From contig JAFQZS010000018.1 of the NCBI GenBank assembly GCA_017405765.1, positions 1 through 64,000 on the forward strand: 64,000 nucleotides of DNA, written 5' to 3'. The notes beneath the pieces were generated by a model that had not been told where the DNA came from, did no database searches, and was given only the letters and a program-made list of their open reading frames with translations. The stretch comes from Clostridia bacterium. Lineage in GTDB: Bacteria; Bacillota; Clostridia; Oscillospirales; RGIG577. Positions 470 through 19,499 of this stretch are shown piece after piece. Position 1 is the stretch's first letter. Every line of letters starts with the position of its first letter. The translations under genes were made by a program, and so were the position numbers.

Positions 470-531
470 CATTCCGCCTTCTTTTTCGAAAGCCTACCAG
501 CATGTCAAAAAACAAGTTTTTCAACACGCTG

Positions 532-566
532 AAGCGTGGGATATCAAAATATGATACCCCACGCTT
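532..566 (-). terminator. Hairpin overlapping the glycosyltransferase stop codon
   Basis: AAGCGTGGG (532-540) pairs with CCCACGCTT (558-566), with further ATATC/GATAC pairing inside. The stop codon of the gene ending at 544 sits in the loop. No strong T run follows directly on the minus strand, so this may stabilise the mRNA 3' end as much as terminate it. Confidence 0.5.
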
Positions 567-1491: not shown

Positions 1492-1581
1492 ACGATTTCT
1501 CCCAAGATATGCGCGGGGGCGCGCTCTCACACGCCCCCGCAATATCATATGTGCCGCCGCTTTTTGTCGTTACATCAGGCT

Positions 1582-2298: not shown

Positions 2299-2449
2299 AT
2301 GATGTCCCTCCGTATATTGTTTTCTCTTCGGACTTATCGTATCATTATCGCGCGCTAAAGTCTGTGGTATTTACCACAAAATCAAAATCTTTTGCAAAAA
2401 AGGCCGCCCACGTGAGGACGAAAATAAGAAAGTATTCATTCGATTCTAA

Positions 2450-2481
2450 AAACGGTATGACCTTTCGGGGACATACCGTTT
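2450..2481 (-). terminator. Terminator-like hairpin downstream of the GIY-YIG gene
   Basis: AAACGGTATG (2450-2459) is perfectly complementary to CATACCGTTT (2472-2481), and on the minus strand the stem runs into five T residues. It lies about 100 bases beyond the stop of the GIY-YIG gene, in a 280-base gap with no convincing gene. Confidence 0.6.
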
Positions 2482-2578
2482 CTTGATTCATAGGATACAT
2501 AGACTTGTCCAGAGGCTTCTGTCTGAAGACAACTGCAAAACCCATCTAAACTTCTAAAAAAGCACCTATTCACGGCCT

Positions 2579-3268: not shown

Positions 3269-3482
3269 TTCACAAAAGCCCCCTCATATTTTATAGCTAT
3301 TTGATATCTTTCACGTTTTTTACTGTCTCAATTTTATAATACCAAACCCAACAGGTCAACACACAAATCCGTAAGACGATTACATCATGTTATATAATCG
3401 TTTCTCGGATGACTTCTGAAGTTGGATTCTATTACCAAGGCGTGATAATGGCTTCTATTATTCGACTACAGTATAAAACAAA
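3269..3482. other. AT-rich intergenic region
   Basis: No gene, RNA gene or clear promoter is visible between the GIY-YIG start and the cinA terminator. The composition matches the acquired gene and not the operon to the right. Confidence 0.5.
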
Positions 3483-3520
3483 AATCGCACAGCCAGCATT
3501 TAAGCCAAAGCTGTGCGATT
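3483..3520 (-). terminator. Terminator of the desulfurase-thiI-cinA operon
   Basis: AATCGCACAGC (3483-3493) pairs perfectly with GCTGTGCGATT (3510-3520). On the minus strand the stem is followed by TTTTTGTTTTAT, a textbook intrinsic terminator about 90 bases beyond the cinA stop. Confidence 0.85.
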
Positions 3521-3608
3521 CTTACACTCTCTCGTATCGACAGATATCCTAAAGTGTCGTTTTTAGTAAAAGCTTTTCTTACATCGACCGTCTCCGAAGC
3601 GTCTCCCT

Positions 3609-4864
3609 CTACCTTGCCTGTGCGGCGCGCCTGAGCATATCGAGTGCATAATTCGCCGAAAGCAGGCGAACCATCTCGCGCACGGTGTAGGAAATATTGA
3701 GCTGCCTAGTCTTTAGCTCCTTTCCGTCGTAAAGCGCGATATATACAAGGCCTGCGGGCTTGTTTTCACTTTGGCCGGGGCCTGCCACGCCCGTAACGGC
3801 AAGGCCGAAGTCGGCGCCCGATATCTTATATATGCCCTTCGCCATAGCTGCGGCGCATTCTTCGCTTACAGCGCCGTGCTCCTTTATAATGCTCTCATCC
3901 ACGCCCAAAAGCTTTATTTTAACGTCGTTCGAATACGCCACAACGCCCATCTCGAACACCTCGGACGCGCCCGCTATATCGGTTATGCGCTTTGCGATAA
4001 GACCGCCGGTGCAGCTTTCGGCAAACGCAGCTTTAAGTCCCTTCTCCTTTAAGAGCTTAACAATCGCGTTCTCTATCGTTCCTATATCCACGCCGTAAAT
4101 ATATTCGCCCACGCGCGCTCTCACTTTTTCTATCGCCTCGTCGATGAGCTTTTCGGCCTCCTCTTTCGTCTTGCACTTCGCCGTAACGCGTAAGATACAT
4201 TCGCCTTCCTTTGCATAGGGAGCTATCGTCGGATTCGTGGACGTCGTCATCATGTCGTAAAGCTTATCTTCAAGCGTTGACTCGCCTATCCCCGCCGTAT
4301 ATATCGTCTTCGATGCGATAATGGAATCGCAGAACTGCGACAGATAATCGACTACCGAATTTTCAAACATCGTTTTCATCTCTCTGGGGGGGCCGGGCAG
4401 CATTATTGCGATCTTCCCGTTGTCGTCCTCCACGGCGCATCCGGGGGCCGTGCCCACTTTATTCTCAAAGATTACCGCGCTCTCGGGCATAAGCGCCTGC
4501 TTTAAATTATTAGGCGTCATTTCGCGCTTTATCTTCTTAAAAAATCCCTCTATGCGCGCGCGCGACGGCTCGTGCATAACGAGCTTCTTGCCGAAATCCC
4601 GCGCTATCGTCTCTTTTGAAAGGTCGTCGTAAGTGGGGCCCAGTCCTCCCGTCGTTATGATTATGTCGGCGCGCATTTTGCCAGCTCAAGCGCGCGCTCA
4701 AGTCTGTCGGGGTTGTCGCCCACAGTCGTCTGATAATATACGTCGATACCCATCTGCGACAGCTTTTCCGAGATATACTTCGCGTTCGTGTTAAGAATAT
4801 TGCCCAAAAGCAGCTCCGTTCCTATTGAGATAAGCTCCGCGCTCTTTTTCTTGGCCTGTTCCAT
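3609..4864 (-). pseudogene. cinA: cinA, split by a one-base frameshift
   Basis: CinA family proteins combine an N-terminal molybdopterin-binding-like domain with a C-terminal nicotinamide-nucleotide amidase (PncC) domain. Here the frame starting at 4864 ([18 protein letters not shown]) stops after 67 codons. Homology resumes in another frame from codon ATG at 4676 ([18 protein letters not shown]) and runs to 3609 through the amidase domain (FAESCTGGLIAKRI, GVAGPG). The break is at a run of four A residues (minus strand, 4679-4676). One extra A would restore a full-length protein of about 418 residues. This may be a sequencing error, a true mutation or recoding. The second frame has no own ribosome site, though it overlaps the first by 16 bases. 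Confidence 0.85.
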
Positions 4865-4878
4865 AACGTCCTCCTCTT

Positions 4879-6060
4879 TTATTCCTGTTCTTCAAAGTTT
4901 ATACGTATTTTCTTTATATTATCCATAGCCTCCGCAATAAGCGGCGCAAAGTTGAACGCCGCCTCGGCCGCCTTAACTTCCTCAACGCTAGGCCGCGTCT
5001 TAGGATGCTTTGGCGTGAACACCGTGCAGCAGTCCTCGTAAGGCAGAATAGACGTTTCAAACGCGCCTATCTTTCTTGATAGCGCGACTATCTCCGTCTT
5101 GTCCATGCCTATAACGGGTCTCAGCACCGGCATCGTCGCCGCCGAATCGGTCGAAGCCAGCGCGTGCATCGTCTGGCTTGCCACCTGGCCTATGCTCTCT
5201 CCCGTCACTACGGCGAGCGCGCCCACTTGCTCGGCCTTGGCGCAGGCTATCTCCATCATTATGCGCCGCATAACTAAAGTGGTAAGCTCGTCGGGACAGT
5301 ATTTCCTTATATGCTCCTGTATCTTCGTGAACGGCACGATGTAAAGGTTCATGCGCCCCGCGTAACGCGAAAGTATATATGCAAGCTCCTTTACCTTATC
5401 AAGCGCCTGCATCGACGTATACGGATAGCTGAAATAATGTATGCACGACAACTCCACGCCGCGCTTTGCGGCCATATATCCTGCGACGGGGCTGTCTATG
5501 CCGCCCGAAAGCATGAGCATGGCCTTTCCGTTCGTGCCCACGGGCATTCCTCCCGCGCCCTTTATGCGCCCCGCATGAACGTAGGCCATCTCATCGCGTA
5601 TCTCTATGTTTACCACGACGTCGGGCGAATGAACGTCAACTTTAAGATGCGGGAATTTTTCAAGAAGATAACCTCCCGCCTCGGCCGCGATCTCGGGCGA
5701 CTTTAGGGGGAAACTTTTATCCGAGCGCTTTGACTCCACCTTGAACGTGCGCGCGCCCATAAGCTCTTTGCTACAGTACTGTGCGGTAAACGGCAGTATC
5801 TTATCCATATCCTTTTCACATTCTCCGGCGCGCGAAAGCGTTGCTATACCGAACACGCGGCTAAGCGCATCAACTGCCTCGTCAATATCAGCGTCGCCCT
5901 CGGGATAAACATACACCGCCGACTGCGCATGAGTTATCGTAAATTTGCCGTAAGGCTTTATAGCTCGTCTTACGTTGGCTATAAGCTTGTTTTCAAAGCT
6001 TTTGCGATTTAAGCCCTTTAAGACAAGCTCGCCCATTTTAAGAAGAATTATCTCTTTCAT
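4879..6060 (-). CDS. thiI: tRNA 4-thiouridine sulfurtransferase ThiI (no rhodanese domain)
   Basis: ThiI activates U8 of tRNA with ATP for sulfur insertion and, in many bacteria, also supplies sulfur for thiamine thiazole. The 393 residues show an N-terminal ferredoxin-like/THUMP region (about 1-165) and a PP-loop adenylation domain starting with [15 protein letters not shown] near 182. Later family motifs are [14 protein letters not shown] and [11 protein letters not shown]. The length ends at about 390, so the C-terminal rhodanese domain of enterobacterial ThiI is absent, as in Bacillus. It lies 11 bases after the cysteine desulfurase and 14 before cinA; the desulfurase is the expected sulfur donor. 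The start has GGAGG 5 bases upstream. Confidence 0.95.
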
Positions 6061-6071
6061 ACGTCCTCCTG

Positions 6072-7202
6072 TTATGCGTGTATGAGCGTACGCGCGCCCT
6101 CTGTCATGCGCGCCGCCAAAATCACGGCTTCTTCTTCGGTATTATTATCGCCTATGCTTATGCGAACGCCCGTTTTATATGTTTTCTCATCAAATCCCGC
6201 GCGTGAAAGAATGCTCTTTGATTTATGCTTGGACGAGCAGGCCGACCCGACTGAGATATATATACCGAAGCATTCGAGATAATGGAGCATCGTCTCGCTC
6301 ATTACGGGCGTCGAAACGTTTAATATAAAAGGGCTCGAATTTTCGGGCGAGTTTATCTTAAAATATTCGGGGTATCTGAAAAGCTCCGAGACAATGCGTT
6401 CTTTTATCTTTCGCGCACGCGATTCGCGCGCAGAAAATTCTGCATACCCCTTTTTTGCGGCTTCGGCAAACGCGACGATGGCCGGCAGATTTTCAGTGCC
6501 GGAGCGCATTCCCGCCTCCTGACCTCCGCCTAAAATTATTGGATTTATCTTAGTCCCGCGCTTTATGTAAAGCGCGCCTGCGCCCTTCGGCGCATGTATC
6601 TTATGCGCGCTGATAGTTATTATATCGGCCAAAATACTCTTAACGGAAAAATCGATCTTTAAAAAGCCCTGCACAGCGTCGCAGTGAAGCGTCGCGCGCG
6701 GACATTTCTCGTCCATAAGCTTTCTTATCTGCGCAATGTCGTTTATCGTACCAAGCTCGTTATTAACAAGCATCACGCTCACCAATATAGTCTTGTCGTC
6801 GATCGCCCGAAAAAGCGCGTCATGATCGACCTGTCCTCTCGGCGCCGGTACGCTTATCACATCAAAGCCGCGCGCTTTAAGCTCCTTCGCGGGATTTTCC
6901 ACAGACGCATGCTCAACAGACGATATCACGATGCGTTCTCCCATGCGCCTCTTAGCGTCCGCCGTGCCGAACAGAGCGATATTGTTGCCCTCAGTGCCTC
7001 CGCCGGTAAAATAAAGCTCCTCCGGCTTTGCGCCCAGTATACGCGAGATCGCGGCGCGCGCCGCCTTCATTTCGGCTCCGGCTTCCATACCGAACGAATG
7101 TATGGCGGACGGATTTGCAAAAACGTCTCGCATTATCCTGTCGGCCGCGTCTATCGCCTGCGTATACGGGCGCGTCGTCGCGGCGTTGTCAAAATATATC
7201 AT
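6072..7202 (-). CDS. Cysteine desulfurase (NifS/IscS family) paired with ThiI
   Basis: This PLP enzyme takes sulfur from L-cysteine and leaves a persulfide. The 376 residues begin MIYFDNAATTRPY, the standard class V aminotransferase opening. They include GGTEGNNIAL, the PLP-lysine region ISAHKIHAPKGAGAL, and the active-site cysteine in SVGSACSSKHKS. I chose ATG 7202, with GAGGG 9 bases upstream, over a 25-codon in-frame extension with no homology. Immediate linkage to thiI suggests it is the dedicated sulfur donor for tRNA thiolation (compare NifZ in Bacillus) and not a general Fe-S assembly enzyme; no iscU lies nearby. Confidence 0.93.
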   Translation of the reverse strand: MIYFDNAATTRPYTQAIDAADRIMRDVFANPSAIHSFGMEAGAEMKAARAAISRILGAKPEELYFTGGGTEGNNIALFGTADAKRRMGERIVISSVEHASVENPAKELKARGFDVISVPAPRGQVDHDALFRAIDDKTILVSVMLVNNELGTINDIAQIRKLMDEKCPRATLHCDAVQGFLKIDFSVKSILADIITISAHKIHAPKGAGALYIKRGTKINPIILGGGQEAGMRSGTENLPAIVAFAEAAKKGYAEFSARESRARKIKERIVSELFRYPEYFKINSPENSSPFILNVSTPVMSETMLHYLECFGIYISVGSACSSKHKSKSILSRAGFDEKTYKTGVRISIGDNNTEEEAVILAARMTEGARTLIHA

Positions 7203-7311
7203 AAAACGAACCCTCAAAATCCACCTTATATTATCCAAAAAAAGACTCTCATGCAGTCTTATTAAAATATTATACACATAAAAGCGCGCCGTTTCAATCG
7301 TTTTGATTTAA

Positions 7312-7391
7312 GAAAGGCGGCGTAATAAAAGCGCGCCGCCTTTCGCGAATCATAAAGAAACTGCCCGTCTTATTTGTCATAAGATGGGCAG
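7312..7391 (-). terminator. Two tandem hairpins after the nucleotidyltransferase gene
   Basis: CTGCCCGTCTTA (7361-7372) pairs with 7380-7391, and GAAAGGCGGCG (7312-7322) pairs perfectly with 7334-7344. The first is followed on the minus strand by TTTCTTTATG. Together they separate the sugar-nucleotide gene from the desulfurase operon. Confidence 0.65.
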
Positions 7392-7409
7392 AACATAAAA
7401 AAACACGCT

Positions 7410-9683
7410 TCACGCTTCATGCGTATATCCGCGTATGAGCTCGTCGAAAAAGTCGCATATCTCCTCGGCTGCCTCAAGCGTTTCTCCCTGCGCCCGCAGA
7501 GTAAGACGCTCCGCGTCTTCCTCGGCCCTTATTGTAATGCTCCCGCGCGGGCGAGTTATCTTAACTCCGTCGCCCAAAGAGGCGTCCTTTCCCGCATACG
7601 ACACTATGCGTCCCATAAGACGCGCGCGTCCGGACGGTGCGCACGGTATACTGCGCGAAGCTGAGTGCACCTTCGGAAGCTCCCGGGCGAGCTCGTCTGC
7701 GCCGATGCCGTTATATATCGTATGACAAGCTATAAAGCAGGTCTGAGCCGCCGCATCGTATAAAAGCGCCGCCGTTTCATTTGACTGTTCGCGTTCTCCT
7801 AATGCAAATCTGCCGCCGTATTTTTTCGCTGTGTCATAAAGCGCGTCTCTTACATGAGACGGCGCCGCAAACGGTTTTTGAGAGCCCTCCTTAAAATATG
7901 CGAGCGCACAGAGCATAATAATGCGCTCGCCCGCGATAATTTCATTTTTTCGTGTTATTATCTCAAGCTTGCCGTTTGTTATGTCATATACGTCGCACGT
8001 GGGCGGGCCGTCCGGATCTACGCCTATCCTCTCAAATATACGCTTAGCCGCTTCATAGTCCGCTCCGCGTCCCGTAAGGCATATTTCTCCCGTATCAGAA
8101 AGCCTCAGCGCCCTCGCCGCCGCGTCGATATAGAGCGAAGAAGCATCGGGAAAGCTTAAACGCCGCGCCGATTTAAGACGCGAAAAATCAAAGCTTCTGC
8201 GCTGCTTTAAGGCGCGCGAAAGCGCGTCCGTCACCCTGGGCGCTACGGGCAGCCCATCTTCTCCTATAAGAAAAACTCTTATCTCTCTTTCGGCACATTC
8301 CGAAAACACGCCCCCCGAGCATCCTGCGCGCGCCGTAATATATGCGCATGCGCCGTAATTTAAGGCTCCAACGTCCAAAACGCTCGTGCCGTCGATCGCC
8401 ATACCCTGTGCGATGAGAGAGCTTATCAGATCCGCTTCGCGGCGTCCGCAGCTTCCCACAGCTATAAGCTCTCCGCCGAATATGCGTGAAAGCGCCGCCC
8501 CCATACCGATCGCCGACTCCGGCGAAAAATCATCGCAAATCTTTATACGCGCTCCGTTCGTCGTTATTTTCACGCTCTCTGCGCCCGAATATATCTCTGC
8601 GCCGCATCTTATTAGCATGCTTCGCCCGATATCTGCGTTGCTTCCGACACTTGCGCCCGCGCCTAGTACGCAGCCCTCTGTTATATGCGCCCGTTCTCCT
8701 ATAACGGCGCCTTCGTCTGCCACAGCCCCGCGAATAAGGGCGTCCCTGTCTATTTTTACTGCGTCAAGCACAACGCTGTCTTCGATTTTTGCGCCCGACG
8801 CGATCTCGCAGCCGCTGCCTATAACGGTGTACGGCCCTATTTGCGCGCCCGATGAAATACGCGCTGTGCGTTCTATATATACAGGCGGTATTATGCTCGC
8901 TTCGTCGTATTCCTCGTATGAGTTCACGTCCCAAACGCGGCCGAGATCACGACCCAGCAGGCTTTCGCCTATACCTTCGACATTTTCAAAAATATCGCGG
9001 TGGCATTTAAGATAAGACTGCGGATCGCCTATATCGCGCCAATATCCGCGCGCGTCAAATCCGAACAGCGCATCTCCGCGTTCAAGCGCCAGCGGAAAGA
9101 GATCCTTTGCAAAATCAAAATACGTTCCCTCCGGCACAAGCCTAAAAAGCTCGCCCTTTAAAACATATATGCCTGTATTTATCATATCGGAATAAACGCG
9201 CGCCCACGCAGGCTTCTCACAGAATTTGATTATGCGCATATCTTCATCTACAAGCGCGGTGCCGTATTGCGACGGGTCGGACACATGATAAAGCAGTATA
9301 GTAGCATCGGAATTCTTCTCCTTGTGAAAGCGCACCGCCGCGCTTATATCGAGATTGAATACCGCGTCTCCGCTTACTATTACGATATCCTCATCATCCG
9401 AAAAAAAACGCCGGGCAGCCTTTACTGACCCGGCAGTTCCAAGCGGGCTGTCTTCTTTAAAAAAGGAAAGCGAAACGTCCGCTGCGCTTTGAAGCGCCTG
9501 CGTTATTTTTTCGGGCATAACGCCCAGCGTTATACCTATATCGGTGATCCCTGCGCGCTTCAGCGCACGCAAAGCGTGCTCAATTACGGGTACCCCGAAC
9601 ACCTGCACAAGCGGCTTTGGACGCGCAGCCGTTAAAGGCCAAAGCCTAACGCCGCGTCCTCCCGCTAAAATTATGGCTTTCAT
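7410..9683 (-). CDS. Sugar nucleotidyltransferase / left-handed beta helix / phosphomannomutase-like fusion
   Basis: The 757-residue fusion has three parts. Residues 1-235 are a nucleotidyltransferase beginning MKAIILAGGRGVRLWPLT, with the signature GGxGxRLxPLT and VSGDAVFNLD. About 250-370 is a hexapeptide-repeat left-handed beta helix (ARISSGAQIGPYTVIGSG). From about 380 to the end is a phosphohexomutase-like region (VLDVGALNYGA, then a late SGRARLMGRIV loop). The usual TxSHNP phosphoserine loop of mutases is not visible; the equivalent stretch reads TARAGCSGGVFSE. The mutase half may therefore be regulatory or degenerate. Such fusions occur in Clostridia and cyanobacteria as mannose-1-phosphate guanylyltransferase-like proteins. 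ATG 9683 is 11 bases from GGAGG; an upstream GTG touches that site and is less likely. Confidence 0.8.
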   Translation of the reverse strand: MKAIILAGGRGVRLWPLTAARPKPLVQVFGVPVIEHALRALKRAGITDIGITLGVMPEKITQALQSAADVSLSFFKEDSPLGTAGSVKAARRFFSDDEDIVIVSGDAVFNLDISAAVRFHKEKNSDATILLYHVSDPSQYGTALVDEDMRIIKFCEKPAWARVYSDMINTGIYVLKGELFRLVPEGTYFDFAKDLFPLALERGDALFGFDARGYWRDIGDPQSYLKCHRDIFENVEGIGESLLGRDLGRVWDVNSYEEYDEASIIPPVYIERTARISSGAQIGPYTVIGSGCEIASGAKIEDSVVLDAVKIDRDALIRGAVADEGAVIGERAHITEGCVLGAGASVGSNADIGRSMLIRCGAEIYSGAESVKITTNGARIKICDDFSPESAIGMGAALSRIFGGELIAVGSCGRREADLISSLIAQGMAIDGTSVLDVGALNYGACAYITARAGCSGGVFSECAEREIRVFLIGEDGLPVAPRVTDALSRALKQRRSFDFSRLKSARRLSFPDASSLYIDAAARALRLSDTGEICLTGRGADYEAAKRIFERIGVDPDGPPTCDVYDITNGKLEIITRKNEIIAGERIIMLCALAYFKEGSQKPFAAPSHVRDALYDTAKKYGGRFALGEREQSNETAALLYDAAAQTCFIACHTIYNGIGADELARELPKVHSASRSIPCAPSGRARLMGRIVSYAGKDASLGDGVKITRPRGSITIRAEEDAERLTLRAQGETLEAAEEICDFFDELIRGYTHEA

Positions 9684-9740
9684 GCGAATACACACCTCCG
9701 CATGATATTATGACCGGACCTGCCGCTTTTAATACGCGCC

Positions 9741-10085
9741 TTATTCCTCGCTCATCATTCTTATAACTCCCGCTATATCGTCAACAGGCAGCGATATTGC
9801 CATACCGCGTCCCTCTTTGTTCAATCCGGCGCCCGCGCTTACGGCGCGCATGATATCTCTCCTTTTCTGGCGCGGCACAAGTATCATTACTATCTCCTTT
9901 TCGGGCTGTATCGTTATGCCGAAAAACTTCTTTGTATCCTTGTTTCCGGTGCCGCGCGCCAAAAATACCGTGCCTCCGTTCGCGCCCGCGCTTCGCGCCG
10001 AGTCCATAACGTCGTCTGCAAACCCGCGATTTACGATAACTAGTATCAGCTCGTATTTTTCGTTCTTATAAAGCTCCGAACTCAA
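9741..10085 (-). CDS. PII-like regulatory protein, second copy
   Basis: This 114-residue small trimeric-type regulator has a ferredoxin-like GlnB/PII fold: ELILVIVNRGFADDVMDSAR opens with strand and helix, AGANGGTVFLARGTG forms the nucleotide-binding-type turn, and the C-terminal part is EGRGMAISLPVDDIAGV. It lacks the classic uridylylated T-loop tyrosine context. Its start overlaps the stop of the preceding PII-like gene (ATGA), so the two are translationally coupled. As third gene behind a DUF1538 membrane protein, it most likely regulates that protein; the ligand is unknown. Confidence 0.85.
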   Translation of the reverse strand: MSSELYKNEKYELILVIVNRGFADDVMDSARSAGANGGTVFLARGTGNKDTKKFFGITIQPEKEIVMILVPRQKRRDIMRAVSAGAGLNKEGRGMAISLPVDDIAGVIRMMSEE

Positions 10086-10480
10086 CCTCTTTCGCCCCTT
10101 TCAATTATCTTCTCTCCTATCAACATGCCAAGCAGCGTCGTTCCCCCGACGCTTTGAACAGGTATCGTGAACGCCACGCCTCCGCCGGGCCTTTCAAATC
10201 CCATTTTATCGGAAAGCGCCGTCAGTATATCATGCGCCTCATTTGCATACACCGCGCATATGAATATATCCTTTTCACTTCCGCCTATACCCAGTATGTC
10301 GAGCATCTCGCTCGGCGCAGTGCCGCGTCCCAGCGCAACAATGCCGCCGTGCGCGCCCAGACGGTGCGCCTCCTTCGATACTTTAGGCCCCTGTCCGCGC
10401 GAAACTATGGCTATAAGCAACTTTATGGGCCTTACGCCTTTTTGTAATTCTTTTTGCATATGCTCCCCCTTTGCACTCAT
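10082..10480 (-). CDS. PII-like regulatory protein, first copy
   Basis: The 132-residue protein shares the fold of its neighbour: IKLLIAIVSRGQGPKVSKEA, then LGAHGGIVALGRGTAPSEML, a short connecting segment DILGIGGSEKDI in place of a long T-loop, and PGGGVAFTIPVQSVGG near the end. The two copies are clearly divergent, suggesting a heteromeric or two-ligand sensor. ATG 10480 follows the stop of the DUF1538 gene by 2 bases and has AAGG 7 bases upstream. An internal ATG at 10459 with a closer GGGGGAG is an alternative start. Confidence 0.85.
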   Translation of the reverse strand: MSAKGEHMQKELQKGVRPIKLLIAIVSRGQGPKVSKEAHRLGAHGGIVALGRGTAPSEMLDILGIGGSEKDIFICAVYANEAHDILTALSDKMGFERPGGGVAFTIPVQSVGGTTLLGMLIGEKIIERGERG

Positions 10481-10482
10481 GC

Positions 10483-12072
10483 TTAAGCCTTATTCTCGGT
10501 CTCGGCTTCATGCCTAGCCTCGACGTCGTCCCAAGCTTCAGCCTCAGCTTCATTTTCAGACTCGGTCTCAAATTCAACGATATCTTCTTCGTCAGACGGC
10601 TCCTGTGATACATTCGCGCCGCGTTTTAACTTTATTTTATAGATAAGACCCATTATCTGTATCGTTATAAGCGGCGTCATGGCTACCATTGCCACAATGC
10701 CGAAAGCGTCTGTCATCATGTCTCCGCCCGTTCGTAGTACCGTTCCCATCGAAAGCGGCAGTAAAAACGTAGCCGTCATCGGTCCCGAAGCAACGCCGCC
10801 CGAGTCGAATGCTATCGCGGTGAACACATCGCTTGTAAAAAATGAAAGTATTATCGCAAGCGCGTATCCCGGCGCAATAAACCACCACAGGGAAAGCCCG
10901 TTAAGGCTTTTTATCATAGACAGCGCAAGAGAAACCGCCACGCCTATCGCCATGCACATAAGCATGGAATTTCTCGATATCGAGCCGCCCGACACGCTTT
11001 CCACCTGCTCGGTAAGCACATGTACGGCAGGCTCCGCCATCACGACGAAGAAGCCTATAAGCGCTCCGATGGGAATAAGTATCCAGTTGTACGAAAGCCC
11101 CGCAATGCTTTGCCCTATGTGATAACCGACGGGCATAAAGCCCACGTTTACGGCATTCAAAAATATCACAAGTCCTATATATGTATAGCCCGCGCCCACA
11201 AAGATTTTCGCAAGGCTTCTTTTTGGCAGCTTTAAAAATATAGCCTGAAAAATCAAAAAGAACACGAGTATGGGCATAAGCGCCAGCGCAACGTGCGAAA
11301 AATATTTCGGCAAGCTTAAAAACAGCGCTCTAAAAAGCTCTCCTGCGCCGTTTATTTCTGCAAGCTCGGGCAGGCTTTGCGAGCCTGACGGCGAACCGTA
11401 AAAAAGGCCCAGCGCCATTACAGCTATTATCGGCCCTACCGAGCAAAGCGCAATATATCCGAAAGAGTCGTCGCGCGAGCTTGCGCCTCCGCGCACGGCC
11501 GAAATACCTATGCCAAGCGCCATTATAAACGGCACCGTTATAGGTCCGGTAGTCACGCCGCCCGAATCGAACGCCACGCCCAAAAAACCGTCGGAAACAA
11601 AAAGCGCCATTATAAATACAGCCGCATATAAAACAAGCAGCGTTATTTTTAAATTCCACCCGAATATTACTCTGAGCGCCGCAAGCACCAAAAATATGCC
11701 TACTCCCAGCGCAACGGTAAAGATCATCGTACTGTCAGGTATCAAAGGCACCTGACCGGCCAGCACCGAAAGGTCGGGCTCTGCCACAGTTACGGCAAAG
11801 CCTAAAACAAAGCACACAACTATGAAAAGCCACAGCTTGCGCGATTTTGAAAGCTCGGAGCCTATAAGGTCTCCCATAAGCATCATTGAAACGTCGGCGC
11901 CAAGCGTAAAAAGCCCCATGCCTATGATAAGCAAGACCGCGCTTACCAAAAAAAGAGCAAGCGTTCCCCACGGCATCGAAGCTACGGTAAAATTCAGTAT
12001 GATCACTATCGCAGTTATCGGAAGTATTGCAATTACCGCTTCTTTCAGTTTTTTTACCAAAGTATTGTTCAA
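10483..12072 (-). CDS. DUF1538 integral membrane protein with internal duplication
   Basis: The 529-residue polytopic membrane protein has roughly a dozen hydrophobic segments. It consists of two homologous halves, each with a hairpin motif: VAFDSGGVTTGPITVPF in the first, IAFDSGGVASGPMTATF in the second. Each half then has an FGxxAxxxxxPxI segment (SFGYIALCSVGPII and AFGIVAMVAMTPLI). This geometry resembles secondary transporters with re-entrant loops; the substrate is unknown. The last 35 residues are very acidic (ESENEAEAEAWDD), possibly a docking tail. A TTG start at 12072 fits GGAGG 7 bases upstream; a 28-codon upstream extension is unlike the family. Two PII-like genes follow within 2 bases, a pairing also seen in other genomes. 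Confidence 0.88.
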   Translation of the reverse strand: MNNTLVKKLKEAVIAILPITAIVIILNFTVASMPWGTLALFLVSAVLLIIGMGLFTLGADVSMMLMGDLIGSELSKSRKLWLFIVVCFVLGFAVTVAEPDLSVLAGQVPLIPDSTMIFTVALGVGIFLVLAALRVIFGWNLKITLLVLYAAVFIMALFVSDGFLGVAFDSGGVTTGPITVPFIMALGIGISAVRGGASSRDDSFGYIALCSVGPIIAVMALGLFYGSPSGSQSLPELAEINGAGELFRALFLSLPKYFSHVALALMPILVFFLIFQAIFLKLPKRSLAKIFVGAGYTYIGLVIFLNAVNVGFMPVGYHIGQSIAGLSYNWILIPIGALIGFFVVMAEPAVHVLTEQVESVSGGSISRNSMLMCMAIGVAVSLALSMIKSLNGLSLWWFIAPGYALAIILSFFTSDVFTAIAFDSGGVASGPMTATFLLPLSMGTVLRTGGDMMTDAFGIVAMVAMTPLITIQIMGLIYKIKLKRGANVSQEPSDEEDIVEFETESENEAEAEAWDDVEARHEAETENKA

Positions 12073-12194
12073 ACTTTCACCTCCGCTTTTGCGGTTTTTA
12101 AAAGATTTGTTCTGTTTTGTCCAGGTATGCAAAAATACCATAAAATAGGCGGACAAGTTTTCATAAGCCGAAAAAAAAGTCCTCTTTCATTGAC

Positions 12195-12212
12195 TTTTCC
12201 ACATTATCAACA
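12195..12212. promoter_or_regulatory. Two adjacent DnaA-box-like 9-mers
   Basis: TTTTCCACA (12195-12203) is directly followed by TTATCAACA (12204-12212), each one substitution away from the DnaA box TTATCCACA. They lie in the 286-base AT-rich gap between tsaD and the DUF1538 gene, which holds no other recognisable element apart from A/T tracts. Binding is inference from sequence alone. Confidence 0.35.
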
Positions 12213-12358
12213 GGGTTTTGAACAGTACAAGCCGCAATTTCACGCGGTTTTTTAAGTTTTTAAATAAATATGAACACGAAAAAAATATCGTCTTTTTAAA
12301 ACCCATGTTTACATAACGCTGTTTTCTTTCATTATTGACTCGTCCTGAATATTTTTGC

Positions 12359-13363
12359 TCATTCAATGGATTCGGCCGATTTGCCGTTTAGAGTATAATC
12401 TGCCGTGCGCCCGTTTTTGAACTCGTAAAAGGCCTGAGATCCCACCATGGCCGCGTTATCGGTGCAAAGAGATATCGGCGGCATATAAAGGCTCAGAGAG
12501 TGCTTCTTTGCCTCGCTTGAAAGCTTTTCACGAAGCACGGAATTTGCGCATACGCCCCCTGCCATAACAACAGTGCGTATATTATAAGAAAGCGCGGCCT
12601 TTATCACGTTTTGTGTGAGGATCCCCGTTACGGCTTCCGAAAAGGAAGCTGCCACATCGGCGCGGTCGAGCTCTTCTCCTCTCTGCTTTATCGTGTGCGC
12701 GTAGTTTATGACAGAGGTCTTTACTCCGCTGAAGCTGAAATCGTAAGGCGCGTCCTTAAAGTGAACGCGGGGGAATTTTATCGCCTGCGCGTCTCCCTCC
12801 CGCGCAAGCCTGTCAATATGCACTCCGCCGGGATACGGAAGCCCCAGCACGCGCGCCGCCTTGTCAAAGGCCTCTCCCGCAGCGTCGTCGCGCGTGCGGC
12901 CGAGTATCTTATACTCCGTATAATCATTGACGATCACGATATGGCTGTGCGAGCCCGACGCGATAAGCGCGATAAACGGCGGCTTAAGATCGGGGTGAGC
13001 TATGTAATTCGCCGCAACATGCGAACGTATATGATGCACGGGTATGAGCGGCTTTTTATGCGCATACGACACGCCCTTTGCGAAATTTACGCCTACGAGC
13101 AGCGCGCCTATAAGTCCCGGCGCATACGTCACGGCGACCGCATCTATATCCTCCATCGTAAGCGACGCATCCGAAAGCGCCGCGCGCGCAACGAATGATA
13201 TGTTTTCAACGTGGCGCCGCGATGCGATCTCCGGCACTACGCCGCCGTATTTCACATGCTCCGCTATCTGTGTGTTTACTATGTTTGACAAAACTTCACG
13301 CCCGTCTTTTACGACTGCCGCCGCAGTCTCGTCGCACGAGCTTTCTATCGCAAGAATTTTCAA
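12359..13363 (-). CDS. tsaD: tRNA N6-adenosine threonylcarbamoyltransferase TsaD
   Basis: TsaD transfers threonylcarbamoyl from TC-AMP to A37 of ANN-decoding tRNAs, working with TsaB and TsaE. All 334 residues fit the ASKHA fold: it opens KILAIESSCDETAAAVV, has the metal-binding histidines in VHHIRSHVAANY, FDKAARVLGLPYPGG, and the late MAGGVCANSVLRE and SLCTDNAAMVG motifs. It starts with TTG at 13363, with GGAG 10 bases upstream. It is the last gene of a run with rimI and the phosphatase, 23 bases after rimI. TsaB, usually next to these, is not in this cluster. Confidence 0.95.
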   Translation of the reverse strand: MKILAIESSCDETAAAVVKDGREVLSNIVNTQIAEHVKYGGVVPEIASRRHVENISFVARAALSDASLTMEDIDAVAVTYAPGLIGALLVGVNFAKGVSYAHKKPLIPVHHIRSHVAANYIAHPDLKPPFIALIASGSHSHIVIVNDYTEYKILGRTRDDAAGEAFDKAARVLGLPYPGGVHIDRLAREGDAQAIKFPRVHFKDAPYDFSFSGVKTSVINYAHTIKQRGEELDRADVAASFSEAVTGILTQNVIKAALSYNIRTVVMAGGVCANSVLREKLSSEAKKHSLSLYMPPISLCTDNAAMVGSQAFYEFKNGRTADYTLNGKSAESIE

Positions 13364-13386
13364 GACCGAGTCTCTCCTTTTATCGT

Positions 13387-13830
13387 TTAAAAAATTTCAC
13401 GCCTCATTATAAGCGCATCCTCACGCGGCTCTCTGTAATAACCGCGCCGCACCGATATCTCTTCAAATCCGGCCGATTTATAAAGCGAAACAGCTGCATC
13501 CGCGCTTCTTCTCACTTCAAGGAAGATCTCACGCGCGCCCTTTTCTTTAAGGCGCGTCTCCATTGAAAGAAGCAGTGTCCGCGCAATACCGCGCCTTCTG
13601 AACGCCGGAAGCACGGCCACATTTGTTATATCGGCAGTATCTATAGTAAGCGACGCGCCTATAAAGCCCGCCGCTTCACCGCCCGAAAAGGCAATAAAAT
13701 AATGCGTATACGGCTTTTCTATATCTTCATATATCATTTCCTCGCTCCACGGATTAAGTATGCACTCGCGCTCGATAAGAGAGACCGCGTGCGCATCGTC
13801 CGTCGCGCATTCTCTTATAGTAAAGTTTAT
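13387..13830 (-). CDS. rimI: Ribosomal protein N-acetyltransferase RimI-like, apparent ATA start
   Basis: This is a GNAT acetyltransferase of 147 residues, the usual RimI length. Visible motifs are ECILNPWSEEM near residue 30, ITNVAVLPAFRRRGIARTLL (acetyl-CoA-binding Rx2GxG/A) and a C-terminal SAGFEEISVRRGYY. The frame is open from a TAA upstream of 13843 but contains no ATG, GTG or TTG before ATG 13737, which would cut off the first 31 residues including the NPWS motif. An ATA codon at 13830 lies exactly 7 bases after GGGAGGG, one base after the preceding stop codon. I therefore infer an AUA start. Confidence 0.82.
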   Translation of the reverse strand: MNFTIRECATDDAHAVSLIERECILNPWSEEMIYEDIEKPYTHYFIAFSGGEAAGFIGASLTIDTADITNVAVLPAFRRRGIARTLLLSMETRLKEKGAREIFLEVRRSADAAVSLYKSAGFEEISVRRGYYREPREDALIMRREIF

Positions 13831-13831
13831 T

Positions 13832-14257
13832 TTAAAGCCCTCCCAATATGTTTAAAAGTCCCTCGTATATCTCATCGGCGCAGGCCTGATATTCGTAAAG
13901 ATCGCCTCCGAAGGGGTCTGTTATATCGTTTGCGGCAAGCGGGCGCACTTTATGCGAAAACTGCGGGAACATGCGCTTTATCTGCATGCTCTGTGAGCGC
14001 GTCATCGTATAAACGGCGTCGGCCGCCTCAAGCATCCCGTCGGTAAGCATTCGCGAGGTGTGCGACGTCAGGTCTATATTCTTTTTCGCCATCGTCATTA
14101 TTGAATTGTAGCTTGCTCCGCTCGGAAACGAGGCGGCCGTACCAGCAGAGGACACCCAAACGTCTTTTATGCCTTTTTCCTTCAAAAGCTCTATCATCAT
14201 TACCTCAGCCATCGGGCTTCGGCATGTATTTCCCGTACATACGAACAGTATATTCAT
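13832..14257 (-). CDS. Low-molecular-weight phosphatase, YwlE-type (protein-arginine phosphatase)
   Basis: The 141 residues belong to the LMW-PTP fold with P-loop CTGNTCRS at residues 7-14 and a general-acid aspartate in ITDPFGGDLYEY. In Bacillus YwlE, threonine at position 11 of this loop favours phosphoarginine over phosphotyrosine; here residue 11 is also threonine. Since the McsA/McsB protein-arginine kinase pair is encoded 14 kb away, removal of phosphoarginine is the best reading; this is inference by family. The gene lies between polA and rimI, and its GGGAGGG near the 3' end is the ribosome site of rimI. Confidence 0.85.
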   Translation of the reverse strand: MNILFVCTGNTCRSPMAEVMMIELLKEKGIKDVWVSSAGTAASFPSGASYNSIMTMAKKNIDLTSHTSRMLTDGMLEAADAVYTMTRSQSMQIKRMFPQFSHKVRPLAANDITDPFGGDLYEYQACADEIYEGLLNILGGL

Positions 14258-14368
14258 ACTCTCCTCCTTAACATTATTCTTTTATGTGATCCCAATGCGC
14301 AAAAAAGATCTTCTGCGTCGTTTCTCGCGGTAAAGGCGAGGCGGCTTTTTGGGGCCTGTGTCCCGAAA

Positions 14369-16930
14369 CTACTTTGCATCGTACCATGACCTTCCGTGAC
14401 TTACGCTCACCTTTAAAGGCACTCCTATATCGCACACGTTCTCCATCTCGCGCACAAGTATTTCGCTTGCGCGCGAAAGCTCCTCATCCTTTGCAAGAAG
14501 CACTAGCTCGTCGTGTATCTGAAGCACGAGCTTCGTTTCAAGCCCTTCTTTTTTCAGCGCCCTGTCAACATTAACCATCGCAAGCTTGATGATATCGGCC
14601 GCCGTGCCCTGTATCGGCGTATTTAACGCCACGCGCTCGCCAAAGGCGCGCACATTCTTATTCGAGCTTTTAAGCTCGTCGATAAAGCGCACGCGTCCGA
14701 ACTTTGTTTTAACGTATCCGTCCTCTTTCGCGCGCTTTACCACCTCGTCAAGATAACGGCGCACGCCGCCGAACGTCTTAAAATAGCTGTCTATATATTC
14801 CTTTGCCTGCTTCACGCTCACGCCTATATTCCCCGCGAGCGTAAAACCCGATATGCCGTATACTATTCCGAAGTTTACGGCCTTTGCGCCCGAACGCATT
14901 TCAGGCGTCACATCCTGTGGCTTTACTCCCCAGACCTGAGCTGCCGTGGCCGTATGGATATCGCCGCCCTCAGAGAATATCCGCGTCATCGTCTCATCGC
15001 CGGACATTCCCGCCAAAACCCTCAGCTCTATCTGCGAATAATCGGCCGAAAGATACTCGTATCCCTCGCGCTCACATACGAACGCCTTGCGTATCCGCCG
15101 TCCTTCGGGCAGGCGGACGGGTATGTTCTGGAGATTAGGCTCCGTTGACGAAAGCCGCCCCGTATGCGTCAGTGCCTGATTAAAGCAGGTGTGAAGATAG
15201 CCGTCCGCATCGCGCGCCTTTTTAAGACCTTCTATATAAGTGGAGCTTAGCTTAGTCTTCTGCCGATATTCAAGAATTTTATCGATTATCGGATGATACG
15301 GCGCAAGCTTTTCAAGCGTCTCCGCATCTGTAGAATATCCTGTCTTGGTTTTTTTGAGCACGGGAAGCCCGAGCCGCTCAAACAGTATAGTGCCGAGCTG
15401 CTTCGGCGAGCCTATGTTGAACTCCTCCCCCGCAATGTCGTATATCTCGCGCGTCGAGCGCTCTATCGCTTCCGAAAGCTCGCGCCCTATCTCGTCAAGC
15501 ACGTCCGCGTCGATATACATACCCTCGCGCTCCATCTCGAAAAGCACGCCCGCAAGCGGCATCTCGATATCGTAAAACAAACGGTGCTGACCGTTCTTTT
15601 CTATATGATCGCACATCTTTTCATAGAGCGCCGGCATATTTACAAGCGCCTCGCAGGCGTCGTCCTCGCTTTCGTATATGTCCCCCATAGGAGATATGCC
15701 GCTTTCCAAAAAGCGTCCCGCCGCCCGAAAGAATCCGCCTGCGGGCAGCGCAGGATCGGCAACATAAGCCGCAAGCATAAAGTCGAAGTCGCCGCCCAAA
15801 TAGCGAAGCTCTTCCGAGCCAAGCTTTGTCATATCGCGCTTTATGTCATATGCGCGTTTTTTTACGGTCTTATCGCAAAACAACGCGCCCAAAGCCTCAT
15901 TTTTGCATTTATATACTGCTTCGCCGCACAAAACATATGTGTGTTCGCTCTGCATGATGTAGTACATAACGCCTTCATTTTGTATTCTCTTTATTATACT
16001 GTCGTCATATGGCAGAGCCTCATATTTTTCCCTTCCCGGCGCATCCGTTTCTTTTTTTTCCGGCTTTAAGCCCAGCCGCGTTATAAAAGCCTTCAGCTCA
16101 AGCTCCGACAGTATCGCGTAAAGCCTGTCGGTATCATACGGGCTTATGCGCGCATCCCCTGGCGAAAAGCTTATCGGCGCATCGGTCCTTATCGTGCCGA
16201 GCGTGCGGCTTAAATACGCCATATCGCGCCCTGCGATAAGCTTATTTTTAACGCCTGCCTTTTCTTTGTCTATCGCGCCCTCCTTATATATCTCGTCAAG
16301 CGTGCCGTATTTCTGTAAAAGGGATGCGGCCGTCTTTTCTCCTATGCCCGCAACTCCCGGAATATTGTCCGACGCATCTCCCCAAAGAGCTTTTAAGTCA
16401 ATAAGCTGAGAAACCTTAAGGCCGTAGTTTTTTTCGACCTCTTCGGGATTATATCGCGTCGTAAGCGTTTGTCCTCCCTTTGTCGTAATAAGAAGCACAT
16501 TGGTTTTATCGCTTACAAGCTGCAGATCGTCGCGGTCGCCCGTTACTATATCGCATGAAACGTTCTGCTTTTCACAAAGTCGCGCCACGGTGCCTATTAT
16601 GTCGTCGGCCTCAAAGCCCGCGCATTCAAGACACGGTACGTTCATGGCGGAAAGTATCTCCTTTACAACGGGAAGCTGAGCGGCCAGCTCATCCGGCATA
16701 CCCTTTCTTTTTATCTTATATCCCGAATACATCTCGTTTCTGAACGTACCGCCCGGCAGATCGAACGCGGCGCAGACGCAGTCGGGCTTTTCATCCTCGA
16801 TGAACTTTAAAAAAATGTTTAAAAAACCGTAAACGGCATTCGTCGGCTGCCCCTTTGAATTCGTAAGCAGCCTTATCGCATAAAACGCACGGTTTATAAT
16901 GCTGTTGCCGTCAAAAATCATCAGCTTCAT
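14369..16930 (-). CDS. polA: DNA polymerase I
   Basis: Pol I fills gaps and removes primers in replication and repair. The 853 residues have a complete 5' nuclease (MIFDGNSIINRAFYAI, ECAGFEADDIIGT, VTGDRDDLQLV), a middle 3'-5' exonuclease-fold domain (about 300-460) and a full polymerase. The polymerase has motif A DYSQIELRVLAG, motif B RSGAKAVNFGIVYG and motif C QIHDELVL. The middle domain lacks the DxE metal ligands of proofreading enzymes (the region reads MYYIMQSEHTYVLC), so proofreading is probably absent, as in many Gram-positive Pol I proteins. GGAGG lies 10 bases before ATG 16930. It appears to head the YwlE-rimI-tsaD run, 111 bases upstream of the phosphatase. Confidence 0.96.
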   Translation of the reverse strand: MKLMIFDGNSIINRAFYAIRLLTNSKGQPTNAVYGFLNIFLKFIEDEKPDCVCAAFDLPGGTFRNEMYSGYKIKRKGMPDELAAQLPVVKEILSAMNVPCLECAGFEADDIIGTVARLCEKQNVSCDIVTGDRDDLQLVSDKTNVLLITTKGGQTLTTRYNPEEVEKNYGLKVSQLIDLKALWGDASDNIPGVAGIGEKTAASLLQKYGTLDEIYKEGAIDKEKAGVKNKLIAGRDMAYLSRTLGTIRTDAPISFSPGDARISPYDTDRLYAILSELELKAFITRLGLKPEKKETDAPGREKYEALPYDDSIIKRIQNEGVMYYIMQSEHTYVLCGEAVYKCKNEALGALFCDKTVKKRAYDIKRDMTKLGSEELRYLGGDFDFMLAAYVADPALPAGGFFRAAGRFLESGISPMGDIYESEDDACEALVNMPALYEKMCDHIEKNGQHRLFYDIEMPLAGVLFEMEREGMYIDADVLDEIGRELSEAIERSTREIYDIAGEEFNIGSPKQLGTILFERLGLPVLKKTKTGYSTDAETLEKLAPYHPIIDKILEYRQKTKLSSTYIEGLKKARDADGYLHTCFNQALTHTGRLSSTEPNLQNIPVRLPEGRRIRKAFVCEREGYEYLSADYSQIELRVLAGMSGDETMTRIFSEGGDIHTATAAQVWGVKPQDVTPEMRSGAKAVNFGIVYGISGFTLAGNIGVSVKQAKEYIDSYFKTFGGVRRYLDEVVKRAKEDGYVKTKFGRVRFIDELKSSNKNVRAFGERVALNTPIQGTAADIIKLAMVNVDRALKKEGLETKLVLQIHDELVLLAKDEELSRASEILVREMENVCDIGVPLKVSVSHGRSWYDAK

Positions 16931-17026
16931 ATTATAAAAGCCTCCGTAAATGTATTTAATAAATAATTATATCATATTTTTATACGATATGTACAGCTTT
17001 ATAAAGCATATTATCACCGCAAAAAA

Positions 17027-17053
17027 GCGGCAGCGTTTCGATCTCGCTGCCGC
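17027..17053 (-). terminator. Intrinsic terminator after the DUF2798 gene
   Basis: GCGGCAGCG and CGCTGCCGC form a GC-rich stem, followed on the minus strand by CTTTTTTG. It separates the small membrane-protein gene from polA. Confidence 0.85.
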
Positions 17054-17091
17054 CCAACGGCTCTCCGTTCAAAGAAGAATACGCCTATCGT

Positions 17092-17601
17092 TTATACCCG
17101 TTCCCTGCTTTCGGCGTCCTTTTTTGCATCTGCCTTTTCGTGATACTTTCTCATGACAAATCTTGCAATAGGCTGCGCAATGCATGTTTCCACTCCCAGC
17201 GAAACGGCAAAGTTTCTCGGCCATTTGTAAAAGAACATCGTTATCGGCTCCATGCTTATATTGCGTTCTCCTATCCATGATCCGAGTACCGTCAGTATGA
17301 CCGACATAAGAAGTACCGAAAAAAGAATATTAGCCAACACATGAGCGTTGAAGCTATCCTCTCGGCGTAGAATCATATTTGTAAGCACGCTCGCGGGCTT
17401 ATACGTTATAAGCACCACGGCTATTACACACAGCCACACAAAGGGTATGACCTCCAGCGTATACCTCCATGTCGTAAGAGAAAATCCCATTTCAAAGCAC
17501 GTAATTATCGGAGCTATGATGTTTACCGAGATCACCGATATCACGAGCATGAAAAGTGCAAACTCCTTTTTGCTGCGCGGCAGCTTCATATAAAAATCCA
17601 T
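17092..17601 (-). CDS. DUF2798-family membrane protein
   Basis: The 169-residue integral membrane protein begins MDFYMKLPRSKKEFALFMLV, typical of DUF2798 proteins. It has about four hydrophobic helices (near 17-40, 50-70, 90-115 and 125-150) and a short charged C-terminus (KYHEKADAKKDAESRERV). No function has been assigned to the family. ATG 17601 has GAGGG 10 bases upstream. A longer frame from 17661 would start inside the terminator hairpin of the preceding gene, so I reject it. Confidence 0.8.
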   Translation of the reverse strand: MDFYMKLPRSKKEFALFMLVISVISVNIIAPIITCFEMGFSLTTWRYTLEVIPFVWLCVIAVVLITYKPASVLTNMILRREDSFNAHVLANILFSVLLMSVILTVLGSWIGERNISMEPITMFFYKWPRNFAVSLGVETCIAQPIARFVMRKYHEKADAKKDAESRERV

Positions 17602-17640
17602 TTTCTTCTGCCCTCTTTCATAAAACCTTGCGATAAAAGA

Positions 17641-17669
17641 AAGCGTGAGACGAAACTTCATCTCACGCT
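17641..17669 (-). terminator. Terminator of the two-lipoprotein operon
   Basis: AGCGTGAGA (17642-17650) pairs with TCTCACGCT (17661-17669), followed on the minus strand by TTTCTTTTATC. It lies 136 bases beyond the stop of the DUF3298-like lipoprotein gene. Confidence 0.75.
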
Positions 17670-17804
17670 GAACAATTATACGCGCCTTTATTCTTTTACG
17701 TTGAATATTTTACCGCTTTTTCATCCTTTTTTCAAAGGAGCTTTTTACTGAAATTCACGGAAAAAAGCGCCCTGTTTTCTTTAATTTCAGACAACAACAA
17801 TGCC

Positions 17805-19499
17805 TCAGTCAAATATCGTAAGGTTCTCTCGCCCGAGCGCTTCAAATGAGATCGAATAATAATCTCCCCATTCGGCGTTACGCTCATATGATATCGTAAG
17901 CCCCTCCTGATAGAGATTGAACTGACCTTTTTCAATAGCCTCGAGATAATACTCGTCGTCCTTTAATTCATTGTCCCACTGGGACTGCTCTTCTTTTATC
18001 TTCTCAACAAGCAGCGCTTTATAATCCACACCGTCCTTAAACAGATCGGAAAGCTCAACTGCGCTCCCCGTCGTCTCGTCGTAAAGAGCCTGGTTGTTAT
18101 GGACGTCAAATAACTCCTGGTTGCCGTTATAATCGTCGTCATACGTGTATACCTCAACGTATCTTGAGTCATTTTCCAAAAGATACTTGCCGTAGCGCGT
18201 CACAGAGTAGCTTACGTTCAACATAACGGTGCTGCCCCGATACTTTGAAAACAGCTCCTCTGCAAGCGTCCTTACCGTTTCATCCGCCGCATCGTACTTT
18301 TCGTTTATCATATCGGAAAGCGCGTCGTCAGATATGTCGCACGGTATCGAGGCGTACATATTCACGTTAGTGTACTGATAGTCTTCATCATTAAATCCCA
18401 AGTCGTTCGGCGAATAATATGCATCTGTTGACTTCACGGGATAATTTGATACGATGAACTCTTCTGCGCGCGTGTTTTCGTAAATGGAGTCCTGCGTTTC
18501 AAAGCGCGAGAATACGCCTATCGCTTCAGACACCTCCGGCTCGCTGTAAGATATGTTGAAATACGCCGGATTGAAGCTCTTATAAGCTTCATAATAATAC
18601 GAGGTGTCAAATTCGGGCGTGTTGTAATCAAAAATAAGCTCTATGCCATACTCGCTCACCGAAAACTTCATATCGTCGGATATGCCCTTAAAGGGATAAA
18701 CAAGCGATAGGTTCGAGTCGTATTCGTAGAACTCGCCCTCCCCGGGGCCGTCCCCCGCCGACATATTATTCTTTGCAAGATAATCGGCTATCTGTGCGTT
18801 TATTATCTCCTTATAATCCGCATCGTCGGCGAACATATCGGAAAGCGGGAACTGCTCGCCCGTTCGCAGGTCGAAATTGAGAGGGACCGCGTCTCCTATG
18901 AAAACGGAATCGTAAACGTCGTCGTCCTCGTAGCTGCCGTAAACGTTCAGCGTAACGAGCAGCGAAAGAATATTTGAGAAATTCGCGCACTCGCGCACGT
19001 ACACCTCTTTTTCAAACGTATAGCGCGAAAAATCGACGGCGCGTATACCGCGATACGGCGGCAGCTTTGCATTGTAAAGCTCTAAGACCGTGTCGTATAT
19101 CGTATCGTTTATCTTTGTTTCAACTTCCTTGTCAAGAAGGCCGCTGGCTATGTAATAATGTATGCGGCCTTCCGAAAAAACAAGAGCACCTGTTTCAGAT
19201 GACGATCCGTCGGCTTTCTGGGCGCTTTCGTCCATTTCAACGTCGGCCTGATTCAACACAAGTCCGTTCGTATATATTATCCGCTCAGGCGTGACGGGGA
19301 CTGTCACCTTGTTTGCGCCGTCTTTAAGCGAGGCGGGCGCTTTGTAGGGCGCGGCGCTTCTTATTATCGGGCTTTCTATGGAAACGTACTCTCGCTGCTC
19401 TTTGCCGTTAGACTGCGCGCAGCCGAAAAGCGCCGCTAATATCAGCGCGCCCGCAAGCGCCGCGGCAAGCGGCTTTATGCTTTTATGCAAGCGGAACAT
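17805..19499 (-). CDS. Lipoprotein with two DUF3298/RsiV-like repeats
   Basis: The 564-residue exported lipoprotein has signal peptide MFRLHKSIKPLAAALAGALI with a lipobox ending in ALFGC near residue 28. It contains two related halves. In the first, VPLNFDLRTGEQFPLSDMF precedes a DYKEIINAQIADYL helix. In the second, ALYDETTGSAVELSDLF precedes DYKALLVEKIKEEQ. This pattern is the DUF3298 domain of RsiV-like extracytoplasmic proteins. No sigma factor or transmembrane anti-sigma segment is visible, so it is probably a surface or ligand-binding protein. ATG 19499 has AAAGGAGG 6 bases upstream and overlaps the end of the preceding gene by 17 bases, giving coupled translation. Confidence 0.78.
   Translation of the reverse strand: MFRLHKSIKPLAAALAGALILAALFGCAQSNGKEQREYVSIESPIIRSAAPYKAPASLKDGANKVTVPVTPERIIYTNGLVLNQADVEMDESAQKADGSSSETGALVFSEGRIHYYIASGLLDKEVETKINDTIYDTVLELYNAKLPPYRGIRAVDFSRYTFEKEVYVRECANFSNILSLLVTLNVYGSYEDDDVYDSVFIGDAVPLNFDLRTGEQFPLSDMFADDADYKEIINAQIADYLAKNNMSAGDGPGEGEFYEYDSNLSLVYPFKGISDDMKFSVSEYGIELIFDYNTPEFDTSYYYEAYKSFNPAYFNISYSEPEVSEAIGVFSRFETQDSIYENTRAEEFIVSNYPVKSTDAYYSPNDLGFNDEDYQYTNVNMYASIPCDISDDALSDMINEKYDAADETVRTLAEELFSKYRGSTVMLNVSYSVTRYGKYLLENDSRYVEVYTYDDDYNGNQELFDVHNNQALYDETTGSAVELSDLFKDGVDYKALLVEKIKEEQSQWDNELKDDEYYLEAIEKGQFNLYQEGLTISYERNAEWGDYYSISFEALGRENLTIFD

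Follow-up and report, generated by a model that had tools for sequence, protein, structure and literature searches.

Near-obligate pairing of a DUF1538 membrane protein with PII-like partners in Clostridia suggests a PII-like-gated cation/H+ antiporter

Introduction

PII proteins are best known for their association with nitrogen and carbon transporters. What PII-like proteins might do beside a membrane protein of the DUF1538 family is the question raised by three adjoining genes in the genome of a gut member of the Clostridia (order Oscillospirales; GenBank assembly GCA_017405765.1), and we addressed it starting from the first 64,000 nucleotides of contig JAFQZS010000018.1, a stretch called the window throughout. 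A first-pass annotation of this DNA, made from the sequence alone, took the membrane protein to be a transporter or channel of unknown substrate and undefined chemistry, controlled by two diverged PII-like sensors for which its acidic tail might serve as a docking site. A search of the open-access literature (subscription papers were outside its scope) found no description of a pairing between DUF1538 and PII-like proteins. Here, we asked how widely the pairing is conserved, what kinds of proteins take part in it, and which explanation best accounts for it.

Results

The three genes lie on the minus strand, where they had first been placed. The DUF1538 gene (10483 to 12072; 529 amino acids) has a TTG start with a Shine-Dalgarno sequence, GGAGGTG, just upstream. 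It is followed by PII-like A, the first domain type (10082 to 10480; 132 amino acids counted from the first ATG), and then by PII-like B, the second domain type (9741 to 10085; 114 amino acids, TTG start), and the stop of A and the start of B overlap by four bases (TTGA), as first described. The gap of 2 bases originally given between the DUF1538 gene and PII-like A holds with the first ATG but widens to 23 bases with a second ATG at 10459, which is preceded by GGGGGAG, would give a protein of 125 amino acids, and appears the likelier start because of its better ribosome site. The two PII-like proteins are 33% identical to each other.

Upstream of the operon, an intergenic region (12073 to 12358, no strand assigned) extends to a tsaD-like gene; promoter-like sites there do not exceed chance level, and terminator patterns are likewise at chance. 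No tRNA genes occur in the window, and no known RNA family (Rfam) was matched in positions 1 to 20000, the intergenic region included. Control by a Na+ or c-di-AMP riboswitch leader was considered and rejected, given this blank Rfam result and given that none of 48 related loci has a riboswitch immediately 5' of the operon. At one locus (L153), a c-di-AMP riboswitch (5491 to 5663) lies directly 3' of the DUF1538-PII genes.

The membrane protein has the two homologous halves first ascribed to it: PF07556 (DUF1538) matches it in two stretches (453 bits against a Pfam cut-off of 22.6; E = 1.3e-136), and it has the two FDSGGV-xx-GP motifs as well as the acidic tail. Conserved columns mark AEP motifs at residues 97 to 99 and 346 to 348 and FDSGG motifs at residues 168 to 172 and 422 to 426. 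Against the UmpA and UmpB equivalog models (NF041627 and NF041628), the whole protein scores 155 and 140 bits, where the cut-offs are 490 and 500, and single halves score 62 to 102 bits. Scores so far below the equivalog cut-offs make it a homologue of UmpA and UmpB and not a filed member of either family.

Substrate and chemistry are less of a blank for DUF1538 than the first-pass annotation supposed, since Na+(Li+,K+)/H+ antiport has already been reported for a DUF1538 pair from Halomonas, UmpAB, in a paper that also gives growth data (PMC5484666). The same work showed by coimmunoprecipitation that UmpAB of Halomonas zhaodongensis is a heterodimer, and antiport activity among the UmpA/UmpB equivalogs is that of Halomonas UmpAB only (PMC5484666). 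Antiport by the window protein would therefore be an extension from one paper on distant members (PMC5484666). The alternative reading of the protein as a channel found no support.

In a tree of 163 DUF1538 domains, the N-terminal halves of fused proteins cluster with the first genes of pairs (A) and the C-terminal halves with the second genes (B). Support for the A/N side is 0.999, and all fused halves are united at 0.998 to 0.999, which fits a single fusion event; judged by these relationships, a UmpA-type gene (the N-half) and a UmpB-type gene (the C-half) have been fused to give the window protein. The loop rich in positive charge is 2-3 in N-halves and A proteins but 1-2 in C-halves and B proteins. 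This opposite loop charge predicts that the halves are inverted relative to one another and that the C terminus, with its tail, is cytosolic. Lone DUF1538 proteins have unbiased loop charge (0.8 and 0.8; n = 5 only) and are, at these few examples, candidate dual-topology homodimers. A lone DUF1538 gene followed by a lone PII-like gene is found at each of five loci (L191, L204, L218, L227, and L228).

An AlphaFold2 model of the window protein, for which the underlying alignment was rebuilt without plasmid-derived rows, has a pLDDT of 91.7 and a pTM of 0.87, and its helices are interrupted where the conserved AEP and FDSGG motifs lie. Searches of the PDB with this model (Foldseek) returned nothing below an E value of 0.001, and no solved relatives were found by sequence. 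With the best match at E = 0.07 and TM-scores no higher than 0.23, no known fold was found for DUF1538 in the PDB; the family may thus have an unsolved transporter fold, and no PDB match speaks for an antiporter fold.

The first-pass annotation had left it to a survey of DUF1538 neighborhoods whether the co-occurrence with PII-like genes is conserved elsewhere, and decisively it is. Of 204 loci with a downstream flank of 500 bases or more, 202 have a PII-like gene next to DUF1538; the set is partly nonindependent because some genomes are present in more than one fetch. Sampling covered 80 loci from a genome-contig scan and 30 more from a survey of the order, nearly all of them with the PII-like gene immediately 3' of DUF1538, and 90 regions fetched in a survey of the phylum (398 genomes, 139 with DUF1538); outside Bacillota, DUF1538 was sampled via plasmids only. 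In the two exceptions, the PII-like gene lies about 600 bases downstream (G060) or a PII-PII gene is found on another contig (G333).

The adjacency profile was built iteratively from the same loci, and the genome-wide and plasmid searches are independent of adjacency. Within the window's order, all 50 genomes with DUF1538 also carry a PII-like gene. Among 72,556 plasmid records, DUF1538 occurs in nine, and the PII-like family occurs in the same nine. Adjacency and co-occurrence, both genome-wide and in plasmids, support the first-pass pairing of a membrane transporter with PII-like partners, to which it is genetically locked.

Across Bacillota and Alphaproteobacteria, the linkage takes at least six architectural forms, among them two DUF1538 genes with one PII-like gene, with two PII-like genes or with a PII-PII fusion, a fused DUF1538 gene with PII-PII, and a lone DUF1538 gene with a lone PII-like gene. 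In Clostridia, the PII-like partner is most often a single PII-PII fusion about 230 residues long (95 open reading frames with two domains against 28 with one), and plasmids of Methylocystis and Chelativorans, two genera of Alphaproteobacteria, have the gene order umpA-umpB-PII. At two loci (L192 and L202), the umpA-umpB-PII set occurs twice in tandem on one contig.

Such co-occurrence could in principle reflect operon hitch-hiking, with the PII-like proteins acting on another target. A single genome of the order (G057) keeps strong PII-like hits without DUF1538, as hitch-hiking would allow, but the linkage persists across these taxa and architectures and is reciprocal in plasmids, so that we consider this explanation improbable. 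The genome in question has two PII-like genes of this family (L238, 5621 to 6453; G057:C49).

By Pfam score, the assignment of the partners to the PII family is weak for PII-like A, which at 13.5 bits falls short of the PF00543 cut-off (25 bits), and borderline for PII-like B, which at 27.3 bits is just over it; what secures the assignment is the family profile, together with the modeled fold of one relative. PF00543 was matched at E ≤ 0.01 by 16 of the 21 members of the PII-like family set, and the nearest solved sequences to the family profile are PDB PII chains (E of about 1e-5), solely PII chains having been found. We also modeled a relative (L068) as a read-through protein, in which the stop codon of its DUF1538 gene is read as Gly and PII-PII follows in frame. 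This single-chain model has a mean pLDDT of 89. Foldseek matched the soluble portion of it to structures of PII and SbtB (probability 1.00, TMt mostly 0.6 to 0.7). The ferredoxin-like PII fold expected of the family is thus seen in the model of this relative, which stands in for the window's own proteins.

Across 373 PII-like domains, hardly any retain the canonical residues Q39, K58, T83, D88, K90, and R101: no domain aligns a residue at the K58 column, T83, D88, and K90 are replaced, and R101 is rare. The domains therefore lack the canonical GlnB/GlnK residue set (Q39, K58, T-G-x-x-G-D-G-K, and R101/R103) and the long T-loop, and they retain RG-T-G, EKE, and KPG-x-G segments. PF06153 (DarA/PstA) has no match at E ≤ 1 in PII-like A or PII-like B, and none in the 21-member family set. 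Because canonical PII effector residues are missing, the role of ligand sensor first proposed for the pair is unproved.

These losses bear on two further explanations. One holds that the proteins are ordinary GlnB/GlnK nitrogen sensors in an operon for nitrogen assimilation, in keeping with the fact that some family members match PF00543 and with public records that annotate it as "P-II family nitrogen regulator." However, the family has neither the canonical residues for ATP and 2-oxoglutarate nor a long T-loop, the window's genome encodes a separate canonical PII fused to the C terminus of an ammonium transporter (L001, 91 to 1848; G000:C50), and no nitrogen genes adjoin the window operon. 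Ordinary nitrogen sensing is for these reasons very unlikely.

The other sees in the PII-like proteins a permanent part of the antiporter, kept for structure or stability: a cytosolic ring with no ligand switch. Loss of the canonical ligand residues in the 373 domains would be expected of such subunits, as would near-obligate pairing and the tandem PII-PII fusion in most Clostridia. Yet UmpAB was reported to be functional in Escherichia coli KNabc on expression without a PII-like gene, none being mentioned in the paper (PMC5484666), the kept glycine and charged positions (RG-TG, EKE, and KPG-G) suggest a retained pocket, and in one genome (G333) transporter and PII-like pair are unlinked. We regard permanent subunits as unlikely, although less so than hitch-hiking.

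If the partners are docked and released, where might they bind? The acidic tail of the window protein, predicted to be cytosolic, spans residues 489 to 529 (10486 to 10608, minus strand), as delimited by tail comparison and motif counts, and includes the conserved short motif DEEDIVEF at residues 494 to 501 (10570 to 10593, minus strand). An acidic-hydrophobic motif of this type (EDIVEF in the window protein, with variants such as DDIIEF and DEIIVL) is present in 110 of the 117 fused proteins that make up the window's subclade, where shuffling the tails gives about 32, and a stricter pattern is present in 95 of 155 against 6.8 expected; both patterns were picked after the tails had been viewed, so these counts describe the tails and do not test them. 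In the sister subclade, the motif is found in 0 of 34 proteins, and the tails are short and basic.

In the isolated AlphaFold2 model, the window tail is predicted with low confidence (pLDDT 53 to 77), and in the L068 read-through model, motif residues 494 to 496 form a strand with moderate confidence; as two models of different proteins, they are consistent with pairing of a tail strand with the PII-like sheet without proving it, and for contact between the proteins the L068 model is suggestive. The tail is thereby a clade-specific candidate for a docking peptide or tether. Because the motif is confined to one subclade and the PII-like partner is universal, the tail is not a general docking site, and in the many PII-paired members that lack the motif, pairing must use another surface. 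The docking role first suggested for the tail is therefore narrowed from the family at large to a candidate within the window's subclade.

A sister PII-like family (A6), reached through weak profile hits, bears on the substrate. It aligns with the window family at an hhalign E value of 2.4e-11, against 0.25 for the genome's own GlnK, which as a single sequence is a weaker comparison. Of its 43 loci (L240 to L282; e.g., L242, 882 to 2477, and L248, 2172 to 3739), about 40 have a PF00999 Na+/H+ exchanger gene next to A6; the family was not found in the window's genome. A6 resembles the window family in a KP-x-x-G-I-x-F segment and in having a partner from a cation/H+ antiporter family. It differs in being a single domain, usually encoded upstream of the exchanger, and in serving a partner, PF00999, with a fold unrelated to DUF1538. 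That two unrelated antiporter families each have related PII-like proteins is indirect support for reading DUF1538 as a cation/H+ antiporter.

A different substrate, such as another cation or an organic ion, with the PII-like pair reporting that metabolite, would be compatible with the distance of the window protein from characterized UmpAB and with the lack of a structural relative of known substrate. We nonetheless find it doubtful, since the intramembrane motifs are conserved columns common to the whole DUF1538 family, the sister PII-like family adjoins PF00999 exchangers, and DUF1538 is among the gene families found informative for bacterial growth pH in a machine-learning study (PMC13255231).

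Discussion

The explanation that we consider probable is that the window operon encodes a PII-like-gated monovalent cation/H+ antiporter, its three genes specifying one transport unit. The DUF1538 protein would be an Na+/Li+/K+ / H+ antiporter of the UmpAB superfamily with its mirror-image halves fused. The PII-like pair, fused into one protein in most relatives, would bind the antiporter from the cytosol and, depending on the ligand or ion that it holds, switch transport on or off, much as in GlnK-AmtB and SbtB-SbtA. In the window's subclade, the EDIVEF-type C-terminal peptide is probably the tether for that pair. The analysis itself establishes the anatomy of the genes, their linkage, the history of the fusion, the topology bias, the tail motif, the loss of canonical PII ligand residues, and the PII fold of a relative; from these and the precedents we infer antiport by this particular protein, its contact with the partners, a ligand, and a direction of control. 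More tentatively, and with some doubt, the system may represent a new PII-regulated class: an inverted-repeat cation/H+ antiporter with a fold not in the PDB and a dual-topology ancestor, paired obligately with a PII-like family of its own, which has no ATP/2-oxoglutarate site and would respond to an ionic or pH-linked signal, with a sister family serving PF00999 exchangers.

Near-universal pairing in the loci sampled suggests a previously undescribed gating of bacterial ion and pH balance by proteins that carry the name of a nitrogen regulator in databases. Should a dedicated PII-like partner exist both for DUF1538 and for PF00999 antiporters, switching of the PII type would reach Na+/K+ and pH homeostasis in many gut Clostridia. 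The pairing also makes the control of DUF1538 antiporters directly testable, since the operon has just three genes, the tail peptide is defined, and nature supplies variants that have or lack it.

The nearest known transporter is UmpAB, which shares with the window protein the Pfam family and two homologous halves of about 7 transmembrane segments each, its A-type and B-type subunits being the counterparts of the N-half and C-half. UmpAB is two-component, whereas the window protein joins both halves in a single polypeptide, scores under the equivalog cut-offs (NF041627/NF041628) and, unlike UmpAB as described, has an acidic tail motif and PII-like partners. On the regulatory side, the c-di-AMP-binding DarA/PstA proteins (PF06153) are PII-like in fold and also occur in Firmicutes, but the window pair does not match PF06153. 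AmtB-GlnK, a gene pair conserved in prokaryotes, supplied the model of ligand-controlled docking in the first-pass annotation; AmtB belongs to a transporter family different from DUF1538, and GlnK has a long T-loop, an ATP/2-oxoglutarate site, and a C-terminal RTGE segment, all three of which the window pair lacks. PII-regulated transporters known so far are said to be trimers (PMC10710835), which we count among the points against the proposed gating. The Na+/HCO3- symporter SbtA and its partner SbtB, like the window system, combine a transporter and a PII-like protein in one operon, SbtB being a short PII-like protein of PII fold and the SbtA-SbtB complex being thought to block transport (PMC8352866). 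SbtA is a 5+5 trimer of ASBT-like topology, whereas the window transporter has a fold without a PDB match, and SbtB docks by its T-loop and binds AMP or cAMP, whereas proteins of the window family have a short T-loop and domains that are often in tandem (PMC8352866).
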